Below, piece after piece: positions 7,373 to 44,085 of a stretch of 64,000 bases of DNA. The stretch spans positions 1-64,000 of the forward strand of contig JABXKC010000019.1 in assembly GCA_013375495.1 (NCBI GenBank), in the 5' to 3' direction. Within the stretch, counting starts at the first letter, position 1. Every line of letters starts with the position of its first letter. A program made the translations under genes and the position numbers. This stretch comes from Promethearchaeota archaeon (GTDB lineage Archaea; Asgardarchaeota; Lokiarchaeia; Sigynarchaeales; SOKP01). The notes under the pieces are model-generated. The model searched no databases, was not told where the DNA came from, and saw nothing but the letters and a program-made list of their open reading frames with translations.

Positions 7373-8410
7373 ATGTTACAAGAAGAAGAGAGTTATCGAC
7401 TAACGCTCCAAACGAAATTATTCGGATGAAACTGTAAACTCGATTCCAAGAAATTAGACACGCTTTTGGCTAATGCTGGGTTGAAAGGGGATATCGAAGA
7501 TTCTGCTATAATACCGGTTCCTAATACTGACTTAGTGATGGTAAAAAATATTGACATCTTTACACCAATTATCGACGAACCAGAAATAGAGGGCGAAATA
7601 GCCGCAGCTAATGTAACTAACGATGTATTCGCGTTAAATGTTCCAGAGATCTCGGGAATGCTTGTATTTCTCGGGATGAAAAAGAACATGCCTATGTATG
7701 TCGCAGAAGGAATATTGGTGGGTATAAGAAATTTTATCGAGAATAAAATTGATTCGAAAGTACTTGGTGGTCATACAATCTACTCAGAATGGCCTCTTAT
7801 TGGCGGAGAAGCATCTGGTTTTATCAATAAAGACAAAATAATTAAAAAGAACTGCGTGAAAGATGGGGATAAATTAATACTAACAAAACCCGTAGGAAAC
7901 CAAGCAATCATGGCAGCATATCGGTTACAAAAAAATAACCCTGATCTCTTAAAGGCTTTTTTTAAAGAAGACATTGATGAATCAATAGATTTAGCCATAG
8001 AGTATATGACTATGCCGCTTCAAAGCGTTGTAAAAGCAATCCATTCTTATGAAGATATGTCTTTCGTGCATTCAATGACAGACATTTCAGGATTTGGGTT
8101 GAGTGGCCATTTAAAGGAGATGCTTCAAAATTCAAATTTATCTGCTTTTATCAAGAAGGTTCCGATATTTAAGCTTACTAAGGAATTGGCGTACGAATTT
8201 GGATACAAATTTGACGAATTAGAGATGCCTGAAACTGCGGGTGGAATGCTACTTTCTGTGGATCGTGATTATGCGGAGGAGTTCTCAGAACGACTAAACA
8301 ATGAGTTTCATGTGTCTAATTGGATTATTGGAGAGATCGATAACATAAATGAACCTAGACATGTTCGTGTTTCAAAAAATGTTGAATATGTCGAAATAAC
8401 TGATATTTAA
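7373..8410 (+). CDS. selD: Selenophosphate synthetase with selenocysteine (SelD, copy 1)
   Basis: SelD makes monoselenophosphate, the selenium donor for Sec-tRNA. The reading frame runs from ATG 7373 (after GTGAGGTGA) through an in-frame TGA at 7427-7429 (codon 19), giving LFG-U-NCKL. This aligns with the active-site Cys17 and Lys20 of bacterial SelD (U19, K22). The rest is typical: DSAIIP...D, VDIFTP-like NIDIFTP, ANVTNDVFALN, LGGHTIYSEWPLIGGEASG, TDISGFGLSGHLKEM, and METAGGMLL-like PETAGGMLLS. Length 345 residues, normal for the family. A stop at codon 19 would leave the conserved N-terminus untranslated, so UGA is read as Sec. A SECIS-like RNA follows directly (8411-8481). A close paralog lies 465 bp downstream. 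Confidence 0.92.
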
Positions 8411-8481
8411 CGATGTTAATGATGTAGGCAAAAACACTGTAAGTGAGTGCCTATGGAAAATTCCGTTGCACAACGGCATCG
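8411..8481 (+). promoter_or_regulatory. SECIS element of selD copy 1
   Basis: Starts right after the selD stop. An outer stem CGATG (8411-8415) with CATCG (8477-8481) encloses two hairpins. Hairpin 1 pairs TAGGCA (8425-8430) with TGCCTA (8448-8453), is preceded by ATGA (8419-8422), has AAAA at the start of its loop and an inner CACT/AGTG pairing, and is followed by TGGA. Hairpin 2 is CCGTT-GCAC-AACGG (8463-8476). AUGA on one side, GA on the other and unpaired AA in the loop are the core features of eukaryotic SECIS elements; Lokiarchaeal SECIS elements of this kind have been described. Confidence 0.85.
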
Positions 8482-8874: not shown

Positions 8875-9906
8875 ATGACTGAAGAAAAAAAGGACTATCG
8901 ATTGACAAAGCAAGTTAAAATCTATGGTTGATCATGTAAACTTGGTGCTAATCAATTAGAAGAATTACTGGAGAAAACGGGGTTAAAAGGATTTATCGAA
9001 GATGCTGCTATTGTGCCCATTCCAAATTCTGACATGGTTCAAGTGAAAAGTATTGATATTTTCACACCTCTCGTAGATGAACCAGAAATAATGGGCGAAA
9101 TCGCTGCTTGCAATGTTACTAACGACATATTTGCAATGAATGTTCCAGAAGTTTCAGGAATGCTCGTATTTTTAGCTATCAATAAAAATACTCCAATGAA
9201 TATCGCAGAAGGAATTTTAAGAGGAATTAAAAGGTTTATGGAACAAAAAATAAATTCTAAAGTATTAGGAGGGCATACGATTTATAGCGAGTGGCCTCTT
9301 ATTGGTGGAGAAGCATCTGGTTTTGTAAATAAAAATAATTTAATCCGGAAACACGGAGTGAAAAAAGGTGATAAATTAATCTTAACAAAACCAATCGGGT
9401 TACAAGCTATTATGGCAGCATATAGGTTACAGAAAGATTCTCCAGAAATGTTGGAAGAATTATCTTCGAATGAACTCAACAATTCGATAAAACTAGCCAT
9501 AAACCTTATGACTACATCTAATCAAGGCGTAGTAAAGACTATTTACACATACAACGACTTCTCTTTTATTCACGCTATGACTGATGTCTCTGGATTCGGG
9601 TACGCAGGACATCTAAAAGAGATGCTTCAAAACTCTGGACTATCTGCAGTAATTGAAACAATCCCATCAATTAAACTCTCAGGAAGCCTCTCTGAAGAAT
9701 ACGGATATGCTTTTAACGATTGTTTATGTTCTGAAACGGCTGGAGGTATGCTTTTAGCTCTCGATCCGAGCAAAGTAGAGGATTTTTCTAACGCACTCTC
9801 CAGTCAAGGCGTTTCTAATTGGATTGTTGGTACTATTGATAACAAAGAAGCTGAACTTGTAAGGATATCGAAAAAAGTTGAACAGCTTGAAATAACTAAA
9901 ATATAA
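8875..9906 (+). CDS. selD: Selenophosphate synthetase with selenocysteine (SelD, copy 2)
   Basis: A tandem paralog of the preceding gene. It starts at ATG 8875 after GTGAGGTGG and passes through TGA 8929-8931, again codon 19, in the context IYG-U-SCKL. The same motifs follow (DAAIVPIP, IDIFTP, CNVTNDIFAMN, LGGHTIYSEWPLIGGEASG, TDVSGFGYAGHLKEM, SETAGGMLLA). Length 343 residues. The two proteins are clearly similar over their whole length but are not recent identical copies, since many substitutions occur in the C-terminal half. Both keep Sec19, Cys21 and Lys22, so neither looks inactivated. Its own SECIS follows at 9908-9975. Confidence 0.92.
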
Positions 9907-9907
9907 G

Positions 9908-9975
9908 GATGTCAATGAAATAGGCTAAAACACATATGTGGGTGCTTATTGAGAATATCGTTGCGCAACGGCATC
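9908..9975 (+). promoter_or_regulatory. SECIS element of selD copy 2
   Basis: Two nucleotides after the stop codon. The outer stem is GATG (9908-9911) with CATC (9972-9975). ATGA (9915-9918) precedes hairpin 1, AATAGGC (9919-9925) with GCTTATT (9944-9950, one G-U), whose loop starts TAAAA and has an inner CACAT/ATGTG pairing. GAG follows, then an 8-nt linker and hairpin 2, CGTT-GCGC-AACG (9959-9970). The primary sequence differs from the first SECIS in every stem while pairing is kept, which is good evidence for a selected structure. Confidence 0.85.
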
Positions 9976-38769: not shown

Positions 38770-39255
38770 TTAGTTATGCTCGCAACCACACCCACATTCG
38801 TGAGCCTCTGGTGGATCTAGTTCACAACCCGTTTCTAAAATTTTTATTTTAAAATGAAGAGTTTTTCCCGCAAGTGGGTGGTTCATATCAAGTATAATAA
38901 ACTCCTCATCTACTTCTTTAACCCAAGCCATTGAGTGAGTCCCGTTAGCGTCACCAACTCCGAGCATCATTCCTTCCTCGGGATCCAAATCTTCCGGTAG
39001 TTGATCCATACTGATTGTTTGTACTAGGAGGGGGTCAATTTCACCATATCCTTCAGAAGGGCTTAGCGTAATCTCGAACTCGTCCCCTATATTTTTACCG
39101 ACAACTGATTCATCAAATCCTTGAATTAACATTCTTGCGCCAACTTCAAATTTAATCGGGTCTCCTCCCTGAAGTTCTGTTGAATCGAATATGGATCTAT
39201 CTTCTAATCTACCTTCATATTCGACTTTGATGATATCGCCTTTCTTAATAGCCAT
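38770..39255 (-). CDS. FKBP-type peptidyl-prolyl isomerase (SlyD-like)
   Basis: A protein of 161 residues: IKVEYEGRLEDRSIFDST, KFEVGARMLIQGFDESVVGKNIGDEFEITLSPSEGYGEIDP, and an insert (IF) domain before LDMNHPLAGKTLHFKI, which is the SlyD order. The tail HECGCGCEHN is a metal-binding His/Cys stretch as in SlyD. Start ATG 39255 follows AAAGGT; TTG 39264 is weaker. It acts in folding and perhaps metal supply. Confidence 0.9.
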   Translation of the reverse strand: MAIKKGDIIKVEYEGRLEDRSIFDSTELQGGDPIKFEVGARMLIQGFDESVVGKNIGDEFEITLSPSEGYGEIDPLLVQTISMDQLPEDLDPEEGMMLGVGDANGTHSMAWVKEVDEEFIILDMNHPLAGKTLHFKIKILETGCELDPPEAHECGCGCEHN

Positions 39256-39264
39256 AAAATCCAA

Positions 39265-41865: not shown

Positions 41866-42681
41866 TTAACTTTTTGAGAATCCTCCATGATGGAACTCTA
41901 TCTTGTAAGTGAGTTTCAGCTTTTTACAGTAAGATTCTATCTCAGACTCAATTAAATCCCATAGAGAAGGGTCCTTTCTGAACTCTTGATAAACAGATAC
42001 TAGGTCAGGATAGTGCTCTTTAATCACCTTAAGGATTCTGGGAACATTGTGAGGTCTGAAATTTAAATTTTCAAACATAAACGAATCAGCGAAGTCAATT
42101 GTCTCTTCAATTATAGCTTTATAGTCAGTAATCTGTGGGAAAAATGGTGAGATAAAAATATAAGTTTTGATTCCATTCTCGTGAACTTCTTTTAACGCTT
42201 TTAATCTTTCATGAGGTCTTGAAGCCCCTTTTTCAATTACCTTCGCAAAATTCGAATCTAAAGTATTAATTGATATCCCAACTTCAAGGTTTTCAAATTT
42301 TTTAAAAAGATCAATATCTCGGGTAACAAATTTAGATTTAGTTAAAACTGAAATCTCTGCTTTTGTACCAACGAGTCTTTCGAGAATCTTTCGAGTGTTT
42401 TCATATTTTAATTCTAACGGAAGATAAGGGTCGGTTACAGAGCTAAAAAGTACTCTTTTTCCATTATACCTCTCCAGTTTAATTCTATCGAAGTCGTAAG
42501 TTTTGATATCCAAGAATTCCCCCCATTTATCACCCTTATGACCAGTAAATCGTATCATAAATTCAGCGTAACAATAAATACAGCCATGCTGACAACCAAT
42601 GTAAGGATTAATAACAAAATCAATTTCAGGTATGTTACTTTTCGTTATGATACTTTTCGTTTCTCTAAGATTAATATCCAT
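41866..42681 (-). CDS. Radical SAM protein (SplB-like)
   Basis: A protein of 271 residues with INPYIGCQHGCIYCYAEF giving the CxxxCxxC 4Fe-4S motif at C30, C34 and C37. The KRVLFSSVTDPYLPLE and LTKSKFVTRDIDL segments are those of the Rv2578c/SplB-like radical SAM group often annotated as DNA photolyase-related. True substrate unknown. ATG 42681 is preferred over GTG 42696. Confidence 0.85.
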   Translation of the reverse strand: MDINLRETKSIITKSNIPEIDFVINPYIGCQHGCIYCYAEFMIRFTGHKGDKWGEFLDIKTYDFDRIKLERYNGKRVLFSSVTDPYLPLELKYENTRKILERLVGTKAEISVLTKSKFVTRDIDLFKKFENLEVGISINTLDSNFAKVIEKGASRPHERLKALKEVHENGIKTYIFISPFFPQITDYKAIIEETIDFADSFMFENLNFRPHNVPRILKVIKEHYPDLVSVYQEFRKDPSLWDLIESEIESYCKKLKLTYKIEFHHGGFSKS

Positions 42682-42913
42682 TCTTTCACACACCAATCTT
42701 CTTATAGTCTAAACTTCCCTCTTTCCAGAGATCATCAATAAATTCTCATAATTCTGCTTAAAACTCATTATGTTTTCTTATTAAGTATTAATTAATTGAA
42801 GCACAGTTAAAAACACTTATTTTATACAATATTAATAATTTCGAAATCAAAATGTATTTATTAAATAATGTAACTAGAAATAATATACAAAGCAAATCAA
42901 ACTTGGTTTTTTG
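42682..42913. other. Intergenic region before the candidate selenoprotein gene
   Basis: Holds the promoter of the radical SAM gene and, at about 42877-42886, a TATA-like AAATAATATA some 30 bp before ATG 42914. This spacing fits a leaderless transcript. Nothing else is seen. Confidence 0.45.
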
Positions 42914-43108
42914 ATGCCGATAAGACTATTAAAAAATGAGAGAACTAATAAAATCCTCCTTTATATTATTCTTATAGCTCTTATAATTACTTCTGCGATT
43001 CTCATCTCTATGATACTCTATCATTATATCTCTCTCGAAGATACTGGAGGAGGAGGATGATCTATATCATGCAGTATCTTTATAAATATATTTTTAACTT
43101 TAATGTAA
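42914..43108 (+). CDS. Candidate small membrane selenoprotein (UGA at codon 49)
   Basis: ATG 42914 begins a 48-codon ORF: basic start (PIRLLKNERTNK), one strong membrane helix (ILLYIILIALIITSAILISMILY), HYISLEDT and Gly4. TGA 43058-43060 follows, then 15 more codons beginning SISC and ending in TAA 43106-43108. Immediately downstream (43114-43163) is an RNA with the plan of the two selD SECIS elements. I infer UGA is read as Sec, giving GGGG-U-SISC in a 64-residue single-pass protein. Small membrane selenoproteins such as eukaryotic SelK and SelS have a similar layout, but no homology is claimed. If UGA is the stop, it is a 48-residue peptide. Confidence 0.5.
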
Positions 43109-43113
43109 AAAGG

Positions 43114-43163
43114 ATGATTTTTGCGAGAAAATATTAGTCGCAAGATGACTTACCCCGCACGGG
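43114..43163 (+). promoter_or_regulatory. Predicted SECIS element of the small membrane protein gene
   Basis: ATGA (43114-43117), hairpin 1 TTGCGA (43121-43126) with TCGCAA (43138-43143) and loop GAAAATATTAG, then GATGACTTA (9 nt), then hairpin 2 CCC-CGCAC-GGG (43153-43163). The selD SECIS elements have the same order: AUGA, hairpin with AAAA at loop start, GA, an 8-9 nt linker, hairpin with GCAC or GCGC loop. The outer stem is weaker here; TTTTTAAC (43091-43098) with GTTAAAAA (43163-43170) could close it. Confidence 0.5.
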
Positions 43164-43287
43164 TTAAAAAATAATACGAATAATAATATATATAGTATGT
43201 AGCATTAAGTACTATATTAATTAACAAAATTCTTATAAGTGTTTAAAACCTCTTTAAATACACAAATTTGATTAAAAACGCTGAATC

Positions 43288-44085
43288 ATGTCGAATGAAA
43301 CTCCCGATAATGTTAAGGATGCTTTACGCGCAATTGGACTTACCGATTACGAAATTGCTATTTACTTAACACTAATCTCTAAAGGACCAATGGATGCAAG
43401 GGAGCTTTCAGATGCATCATCGGTGCCGTATTCCAGAATCTATAACATCTTGACTCAATTAGAGAAAGAAAAGAAGTGGATTATCAAAGAAGAAGAATCT
43501 AGGCCTAGTCGGTATTTCGCAAAAAGTCCTGACGAGGCATTGATTATCGCAAAAAAGCAATATAGTGTTCGCTTTGACAAACATTCGAATAATATCATTA
43601 GAAATTTAACCCCTATTTATGAATCGCACGATACGCCAATAAAAGTTGCCTTATATATTCATCGTGGAAGAGATGTCTGCATAAATCGAAGTATGAATAT
43701 TATTGAACACGCTAAGAATTCTTTATATATCGTTGCACCTTATTATGAATTTCTAGAGCTTTTTTATGATGCAATCAAAAAAGCAAGGGCACGCGGAGTG
43801 ACGGATATTATACTATTAATAGAAGAGGAAGCCCTCAAAGACGAAAATTTTGAAGAAATCATAAAAAAATACTCAGATATCTGTGAAATTTGTTCCCGTG
43901 ATCAAGTATTTGGAACGAGTATAGTAATGGATGAAGGGGAAGAAGCCTTCATTATTTTAACACAAGAAATTTTTAAAGGATTGAGTTATTTCGGTGTAGA
44001 TACCGATCACATAGCGTTTGGTCCCGCTAGCAATTTCTACTTCAATTATCTCTACAAAACAGCTAAACCTTTAAAATTTGAATAA
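43288..44085 (+). CDS. TrmB-family transcriptional regulator
   Basis: A protein of 265 residues. Residues 8-75 form the wHTH (LRAIGLTDYEIAIYLTLISKGPMDARELSDASSVPYSRIYNILTQLEKEKKW), followed by SRPSRYFAKSPDEAL. The C-terminal part is a PLD-like regulatory domain as in TrmB proteins (RSMNIIEHAKNSLYIVAPYYEF). TrmB proteins sense sugars in Thermococcales; the ligand here is unknown. It is convergent with the S15 hydrolase gene. Confidence 0.88.
   Translation: MSNETPDNVKDALRAIGLTDYEIAIYLTLISKGPMDARELSDASSVPYSRIYNILTQLEKEKKWIIKEEESRPSRYFAKSPDEALIIAKKQYSVRFDKHSNNIIRNLTPIYESHDTPIKVALYIHRGRDVCINRSMNIIEHAKNSLYIVAPYYEFLELFYDAIKKARARGVTDIILLIEEEALKDENFEEIIKKYSDICEICSRDQVFGTSIVMDEGEEAFIILTQEIFKGLSYFGVDTDHIAFGPASNFYFNYLYKTAKPLKFE

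Follow-up and report, generated by a model that had tools for sequence, protein, structure and literature searches.

To our knowledge, the archaeal selenoproteins described so far comprise SelD, peroxiredoxin-like proteins and soluble enzymes that act in hydrogen and electron metabolism. For the Asgard archaea, the main text of a survey of 409 genomes, which searched from known families, lists seven selenoprotein families (SelD, FrhA/VhuU, HdrA, FrhD, Prx-like, AhpF-N and DsbA-like) and reports no eukaryote-specific family (PMC11227280). The type I Asgard SECIS is characterized in the same text by an AUGA_GA core, an upper stem of 7-15 bp, an apical loop of 8-20 nt, an unpaired A-run and a location in the 3' region. 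In the available part of a second paper, the largest archaeal selenoproteome is that of Lokiarchaeota isolate bin41, with 19 genes (PMC13188914). SelK and SelS form a family that is defined by its plan, the two having no significant sequence similarity; the portion of the source available to us describes in them a Gly-rich segment that is also rich in Pro and positively charged, and places their C-terminal part in the cytoplasm (PMC10650576).

Within a stretch of 64,000 nucleotides from a lokiarchaeal contig (the window, by which we mean the whole stretch analysed), one locus very likely encodes a 64-residue single-pass membrane selenoprotein with its own SECIS, judging from its sequence and that of its relatives. 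The family is very probably unreported in the Asgard selenoprotein literature searched, where the survey was represented by its main text; in that text, supplementary tables aside, the family is not listed (PMC11227280). The decoding mechanism is very probably ordinary, and the protein new.

The reading frame, its relatives and its tail

The features of the locus up to the end of the reading frame are as follows.

42882..42892, + strand: TATA-like element AATATACAAAG, 22-32 bp upstream of the ATG, a putative promoter element by its sequence
42914..43108, + strand: candidate selenoprotein coding sequence, 64 residues when translated with TGA as U; stop codon TAA at 43106-43108
42953..43009, + strand: predicted transmembrane segment, residues 14-32 (hydropathy, charge, AlphaFold2 helix)
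43046..43057, + strand: Gly4 linker, residues 45-48 (translation)
43058..43060, + strand: UGA codon, candidate selenocysteine 49; TGA at the same codon in 18 of 18 loci
43070..43072, + strand: Cys53, candidate partner of the selenocysteine (UxxxC)

Translated with TGA as U, the frame 42914-43108 reads MPIRLLKNERTNKILLYIILIALIITSAILISMILYHYISLEDTGGGG-U-SISCSIFINIFLTLM-stop. The four glycines before the UGA, the 15 open codons between it and the TAA, and the UxxxC arrangement had all been noticed in the preliminary description, and the translation confirms them. The TATA-like box reported there is likewise present; TTAATATATATAAA is found at a comparable distance upstream in several relatives of the UxxxC clade (defined below), and in some relatives an AGG stands about 10 nt before the ATG. 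It is plausible that the mRNA of the candidate is leaderless.

The membrane segment has a mean Kyte-Doolittle hydropathy of 2.89 over its 19 residues. An AlphaFold2 model of the 64-residue protein places a helix at residues 9-43, with block pLDDT values of 86 and 89 over residues 11-30; the mean for the whole model is 69.8, and the tail is of low confidence. Ahead of the selenocysteine, Lys and Arg number three to five on the N-terminal side of the membrane segment and zero on its C-terminal side in all 18 loci, from which we infer that the N-terminus would lie inside and the C-terminal tail outside. In an 18-row protein alignment, in which the starts of two members (L012 and L017) are non-ATG and uncertain, a Gly-Gly pair is invariant; the glycine stretch is GGGG in the window protein and mostly GGG among its relatives.

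Searches for a known family gave little. The window protein matches no Pfam family at E <= 1, and its best NCBIfam match has an E-value of 0.52; a PDB profile search with the family reached at best E 0.13, with matches to membrane segments only. Pfam searches with the 18 members, for which 17 families are listed, gave isolated weak matches to various unrelated families, the best at E 0.0067, and viral contigs contained no relative.

Relatives were found among the Lokiarchaea. A scan of a genome collection returned one (L001), 67% identical over residues 1-63 and thus spanning the UGA; the DNA of 43107-43159 is identical in this relative, and the adjoining DNA differs. A protein search through 79 genomes of one Lokiarchaeal order gave matches in 20 genomes at E <= 0.01, 17 of which have one TGA within the match, at the codon where the window has its UGA. 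Three weak genomes among the 20, which lack the features of the family, were set aside. In the window and its 17 relatives, hereafter the main loci, the codon is TGA in 18 of 18 and never TAA or TAG. A profile search through 227 genomes of the phylum found matches in 37, the same 17 among them, and added three loci (L036, L038 and L039), each with a TGA, a Cys at +2 and a SECIS element. It also returned four further candidates of related plan (L042, L044, L045 and L048). Weak protein matches at L020-L022, L037, L041 and L047 were read and discarded as not belonging to the family.

A protein database presents the family largely in a shortened form. Its proteins mostly end at 47-48 residues, and 80 clusters match the family profile, one of them being the short form from the window itself. 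Of these, 75 stop behind a GGG, GGV or GGI, at the place that the UGA occupies in the loci. The other five protein records read W at the selenocysteine position; two of them have further W residues that coincide with TGA codons of locus L010, which points to TGA having been translated as W. The preliminary description had suggested a search of relatives for a UGA or a Cys at this codon. The UGA is found, but none of the 80 clusters has a Cys at the position, even with a query profile that contained Cys, and so the Sec/Cys pairing that usually serves as proof is missing for this family.

Evidence on translation past the UGA comes from the tail, which divides the main loci into a UxxxC clade (10 loci, the window included) and a UxC clade (8 loci). 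The first residues after the UGA are kept, as UPSTCSI-like sequences in the one clade and as U-x-C in the other, and a Cys follows the UGA in 18 of 18 loci (at +4 in ten, at +2 in eight). Behind the stops of 254 long reading frames, taken as controls from the window and from the loci (some of them related to one another), a Cys stands at +2 in 10 cases and at +4 in 3. Among 18 further loci of the plan TM-Gly-Sec, a count that leaves out L042 and L048, 13 have a Cys at +2, one at +4 and four none, their tails being UPGA (twice), UPG-stop and UGY-stop. For translation of the tail, we regard the conserved Cys at +2 or +4 as the strongest indication. A column-permutation test over the whole tail gave p-values of 0.096, 0.011 and 0.22 in three groups, and 9-15% of the permutations likewise yield a stop-free tail. 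Taken over its full length, the tail is weakly supported as coding, and we count this outcome against its distal part. Conservation behind the UGA, which had been set in advance as a test, is seen in the first residues and the Cys and weakly in the tail as a whole.

The proteins of the main family would have 13-17 residues after the selenocysteine (15 in the window). At two loci (L008 and L010), the frame reaches a second UGA a few nucleotides before the AUGA of the SECIS, suggesting that, within one gene, the distance of a UGA from the SECIS may decide whether it is read as selenocysteine or as stop. In the Lokiarchaeia, UGA stops that overlap the AUGA of the SECIS have been described in the main text of the Asgard survey (PMC11227280).

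What such a protein might do can be suggested from its plan. The selenocysteine and the Cys at +2 or +4 could form a selenenylsulfide behind the flexible Gly linker, and the tethered selenol/thiol tail might then exchange electrons with a partner near the membrane or outside the cytoplasm. We put forward this membrane-tethered redox role tentatively. The residue may instead serve as a metal ligand or as a covalent attachment point, a reading that would sit well with the varying place of the Cys (UxxxC or UxC) and with the four of 18 further loci that have none, but one that we consider unlikely, given the Cys kept in all 18 main loci and the available part of a paper according to which most characterised selenoproteins are Trx-like and carry a redox-active motif (PMC13188914).

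Neighbouring genes and probable selenocysteine use

Two genes flank the candidate, and two others in the window bear on the use of selenocysteine by the organism.

43288..44085, + strand: TrmB-like transcription regulator gene (Pfam TrmB, E 7e-17)
41866..42696, - strand: radical SAM protein gene, the divergent upstream neighbour (Radical_SAM PF04055, E 3.2e-14)
7373..8457, + strand: selD copy 1, with UGA at 7427-7429 (GUNCK) and a type II SECIS at 8419-8457 (by eye)
8875..9952, + strand: selD copy 2, with UGA at 8929-8931 (GUSCK) and a type II SECIS at 9915-9952 (by eye)

The TrmB-like gene lies directly downstream in all 18 main loci and in L036, with products 73-94% identical (the contig of L008 holds 45 residues of it), and Cys131 is invariant in 18 of 18 aligned sequences of the regulator. 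The flanks examined at L038, at L039 and at loci that diverge further gave no TrmB-like match. On the other side, a radical SAM gene adjoins in eight of the nine other UxxxC loci, L009 having 28 residues of it; it was not found at L006. The closest NCBIfam model to its product is TIGR04470, at a score below the cut-off of that model. The conservation of both neighbours hints at a functional tie. The redox tail is perhaps tied to the TrmB-like regulator in particular, a connection that we find possible but doubtful. Elsewhere in the window, the protein at 38770-39264, which by eye we take to be FKBP-like, ends in a Cys/His-rich tail (HECGCGCEHN).

The conserved regulator also allows a reading in which both products of the gene matter: the UGA would be recoded only when selenium is available, the 48-residue form would be functional in itself, and the gene would report selenium status, with the TrmB-like regulator downstream. 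The membrane and Gly part is complete ahead of the UGA, and the adjacent regulator is conserved together with its invariant Cys131, as this reading would have it. TrmB-family regulators, however, are mostly known as sensors of sugars, and we judge it quite improbable.

The organism very probably uses selenocysteine, since the window holds two selD genes with an in-frame UGA. SepSecS was found in 75 of the 79 genomes of the order, so that this search barely separates genomes, and the main family is absent from most of the order genomes in which SepSecS occurs. Two of the 17 family genomes (G066 and G068) gave no SepSecS match; their assemblies may be incomplete.

The probable SECIS element and the covariance models

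Behind the reading frame, folding and alignment delimit two further features.

43110..43150, + strand: type I eukaryotic-like SECIS, with AUGA at 43114-43117, stem 43119-43126/43138-43145, loop GAAAAUAUUAG at 43127-43137 and GA at 43147-43148
43152..43164, + strand: second hairpin ACCC-CGCAC-GGGU, with stem 43152-43155/43161-43164 and loop CGCAC

With an 8 bp stem and an 11-nt loop on folding, the element agrees with the published type I Asgard form. From its position 56 nt downstream, this SECIS would recruit the archaeal Sec machinery; the ribosome would then decode the UGA at 43058 as selenocysteine, and the peptide would extend by 15 residues to the TAA just before the SECIS. Folded as a single sequence, the element is not significant (z -1.37, with 20 of 200 shuffles folding as well), and Rfam at its gathering thresholds found nothing across the window. 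The case for a SECIS rests for this reason on comparison.

The comparison covers 21 SECIS sequences, namely the window, its 17 main relatives, L036, L038 and L039. Across them the AUGA, AAAA, UAG and GA positions are kept; 98.0% of the paired cells are standard, 14 cells are changed on both sides, and the covariation score is 0.262, values that were each reached in 0 of 500 shuffles. As many pairs with two-sided changes occurred in 8 of the 500. The count of pair types shows no excess, at 8 against a shuffled mean of 8.9, with 499 of 500 shuffles as high. In the main stem, G-C has become A-U in 8 of the 21 sequences and C-G has become U-A in 4 of 21; compensatory changes, the other test fixed beforehand, are present there, and neither of the two tests refutes the selenoprotein reading. 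The spacing from the UGA to the AUGA is 51-60 nt in all 18 main loci.

A covariance model built from the 21 family sequences (R1) matched in 65 of the 79 order genomes at E <= 0.01. By construction, these matches include all the seeds but the window, 20 in number. Of 130 further matches among those listed, 107 fall at the 3' ends of genes from known selenoprotein families (FrhD 80, Prx-like 12, HdrA-like 7, SelD 5, hydrogenase C-terminal peptide 3), and the others belong to small TM-Gly-Sec proteins (15), two-TM proteins whose selenocysteine lies between the helices (5), an acidic CxxxU protein (1) and two unclassified loci. For 120 matches the sorting was done by a regular expression (75 FrhD and 1 SelD) and by eye for the remaining 44, with reading of the open frames for 9. 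One example per class was compared with Pfam; FlpD, AhpC-TSA, AIRS_C and Fer4 were matched, and the example of the hydrogenase-like peptide, which we name from its DCULSC motif and presume to be such, had no Pfam match. At the seven HdrA-like loci no Sec codon was found within the part of the reading frame examined.

For a second model (R2), only the SECIS of known selenoprotein genes were used, 64 in all (51 FrhD, 8 Prx-like, 3 SelD and 2 hydrogenase peptide). The starting set was the 93 loci, among the 120, that belong to known families, HdrA-like ones excluded; eight in which no exact AUGA stood at its expected position were dropped, 78 were left once duplicates and short ones had been removed, and 64 of the 78 were aligned. 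In the window, R2 scores 67.8 bits (E 2e-15) at 43110-43169, and the next best place in the 64 kb scores 10.6 bits. On 33 loci it gave 22 matches, comprising all 20 family loci as well as L044 and L045, and none at nine control loci (L020-L022, L037, L040, L041, L043, L046 and L047). L042 (PPPNGGG-UC-stop) and L048 (UG-stop), each with a SECIS-like hairpin by eye, were not matched; they are possible members of the family. Over the phylum, R2 matched at E <= 1e-4 in 73 of the 227 genomes, 66 inside the order and 7 outside it. The two models are not independent, as the members of R2 were recruited by R1 and R1 was trained on this family.

The preliminary description had suggested a covariance model made from the two selD elements of the window. 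The check as run, with the SECIS of known genes in their place, is strongly positive, and the view that the UGA is more than a chance stop codon is borne out by the gap between 67.8 and 10.6 bits and by the 17 relatives that keep both the UGA and the RNA. The likeness to the selD elements themselves fared less well. The common plan of AUGA, hairpin, GA and second hairpin is there, but the loop begins with GAAAA and not with AAAA; a linker of 9 nt between the GA and the second hairpin was not found, as we count 3 nt here and about 5 and 6 nt at the first and second selD; the GCAC loop is shared by the first selD, the second having GCGC; and the selD elements are of the longer type II form, which neither R1 nor R2 matches. 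A C-rich hairpin similar to the one at 43152-43164 (CC-NGCRA-GG) stands directly behind the SECIS at FrhD, Prx-like and SelD 3' ends. In an alignment of 64 sequences the outermost pair of this second hairpin is broken in 29. No U-run follows it in the window, and we found no description of such a hairpin in the main text of the Asgard survey (PMC11227280).

The locus could also encode a plain membrane peptide of 48 residues that ends at an ordinary UGA stop, followed by RNA that is unrelated or there by chance. The database proteins, most of which end at 47-48 residues, favour this reading, as do the single-sequence folding, which is not significant, and the weak coding signal of the whole tail. 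An ordinary stop would, however, leave unexplained a codon that in all 18 loci is TGA and in none TAA or TAG, a Cys at +2 or +4 in every one of them, the R2 match (67.8 bits, E 2e-15), the covariation in the SECIS and the spacing kept within 51-60 nt, and we consider this reading very improbable. That the hairpins act as regulatory RNA for the TrmB-like gene, which does follow in all 18 main loci, and are no SECIS at all is harder still to credit, as the same element occurs at FrhD, Prx-like, SelD, HdrA-like and hydrogenase-peptide 3' ends, and L038 and L039 carry the UGA and the element with no TrmB-like match in the flank examined.

Apart from the main family, R1 yields about 20 small membrane candidates that are not listed among the known families. 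Divergent small TM-Gly-Sec proteins, found through the RNA and not through protein similarity, occur at L067, L076, L088, L106, L112, L118, L125, L132, L133, L146, L161, L165, L167, L174 and L181. A second unlisted design consists of short proteins with two membrane segments, a selenocysteine at the end of the first (mostly as [AS]UG) and the same kind of SECIS behind (L077, L093, L108, L111 and L119); a profile of this design found 8 places in 7 of the 79 genomes, the five seeds and three new ones (in G037, G040 and G059), with one TGA each. L175, found by R1, and L044 combine a membrane segment, an Asp/Gly-rich stretch, a CxxxU-type motif (CDLPIU and CDIFU) and a SECIS-like element, and L045 encodes a membrane protein with CPPU and a SECIS-like element.

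Comparison with known selenoproteins

The protein that we propose, a membrane-anchored selenoprotein decoded through its own SECIS, may have been passed over in earlier counts. Its relative L001 belongs to a genome with the isolate name bin41, and the gene may therefore be missing from the count of 19 selenoprotein genes given for that isolate in the available part of the paper (PMC13188914). Most of the database proteins are truncated at the UGA. A membrane-anchored family with no known Cys form would mean that the survey of 409 Asgard genomes, working from known families, had missed a class. A much wider proposition, that small membrane selenoproteins of several unrelated designs, with the eukaryotic-like SECIS, form a large and so far unseen class in Lokiarchaeia and that the single-pass TM-Gly-Sec design is the archaeal antecedent of SelK and SelS, in plan though perhaps not in any sequence likeness that can be detected, seems to us a long shot. 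A search in Lokiarchaea that begins from the RNA is suggested to work, and a short gene with a clean SECIS is suited to reporter tests; the conversion of a bacterial reporter to an archaeal selenoprotein has been described (PMC9622424). Do small membrane selenoproteins of the SelK/SelS type have archaeal roots?

As in SelK and SelS, the candidate is small, with a single N-terminal membrane segment, a glycine stretch and a selenocysteine late in the chain. It differs from them in that the glycine stretch is short, with no Lys or Arg between the membrane segment and the selenocysteine in any of the 18 loci, and in the position of the selenocysteine, which is second or third from the C-terminus in SelK and SelS, whereas in the main family 13-17 residues follow it. 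Close to the SelK/SelS position are only L165 and L174 (UPG-stop/UGY-stop) and L048 (UG-stop), the last merely a possible member. The C-terminal part of SelK and SelS is cytoplasmic in the portion of the source available (PMC10650576), whereas the tail of the candidate is predicted from the charges to lie outside. The SelK profile (PF10961) gave 0 matches above the cut-off in the 79 genomes and 24 weak ones at E up to 0.1, and SelK is absent from the 17 Pfam families listed for the 18 members. With the Gly/Pro/basic segment and the late selenocysteine position both lacking and no SelK profile match above the cut-off, we do not file the candidate under SelK/SelS; the preliminary description had offered that likeness as an analogy only, and so it stays.

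The known Asgard selenoproteins share with the candidate the type I SECIS with its AUGA/GA core and A-rich loop, and a similar second hairpin at 64 aligned sites; the candidate stands apart from them in being membrane-anchored, in having no Pfam match to any of them and in the lack of a Cys form among the sequences found. As for the RNA, the element lies in the 3' region, as do the euryarchaeal (Methanococcales) SECIS, but where these have a GAA_A bulge according to the main text of the Asgard survey (PMC11227280), the core seen here by eye is AUGA/GA, as in eukaryotes.
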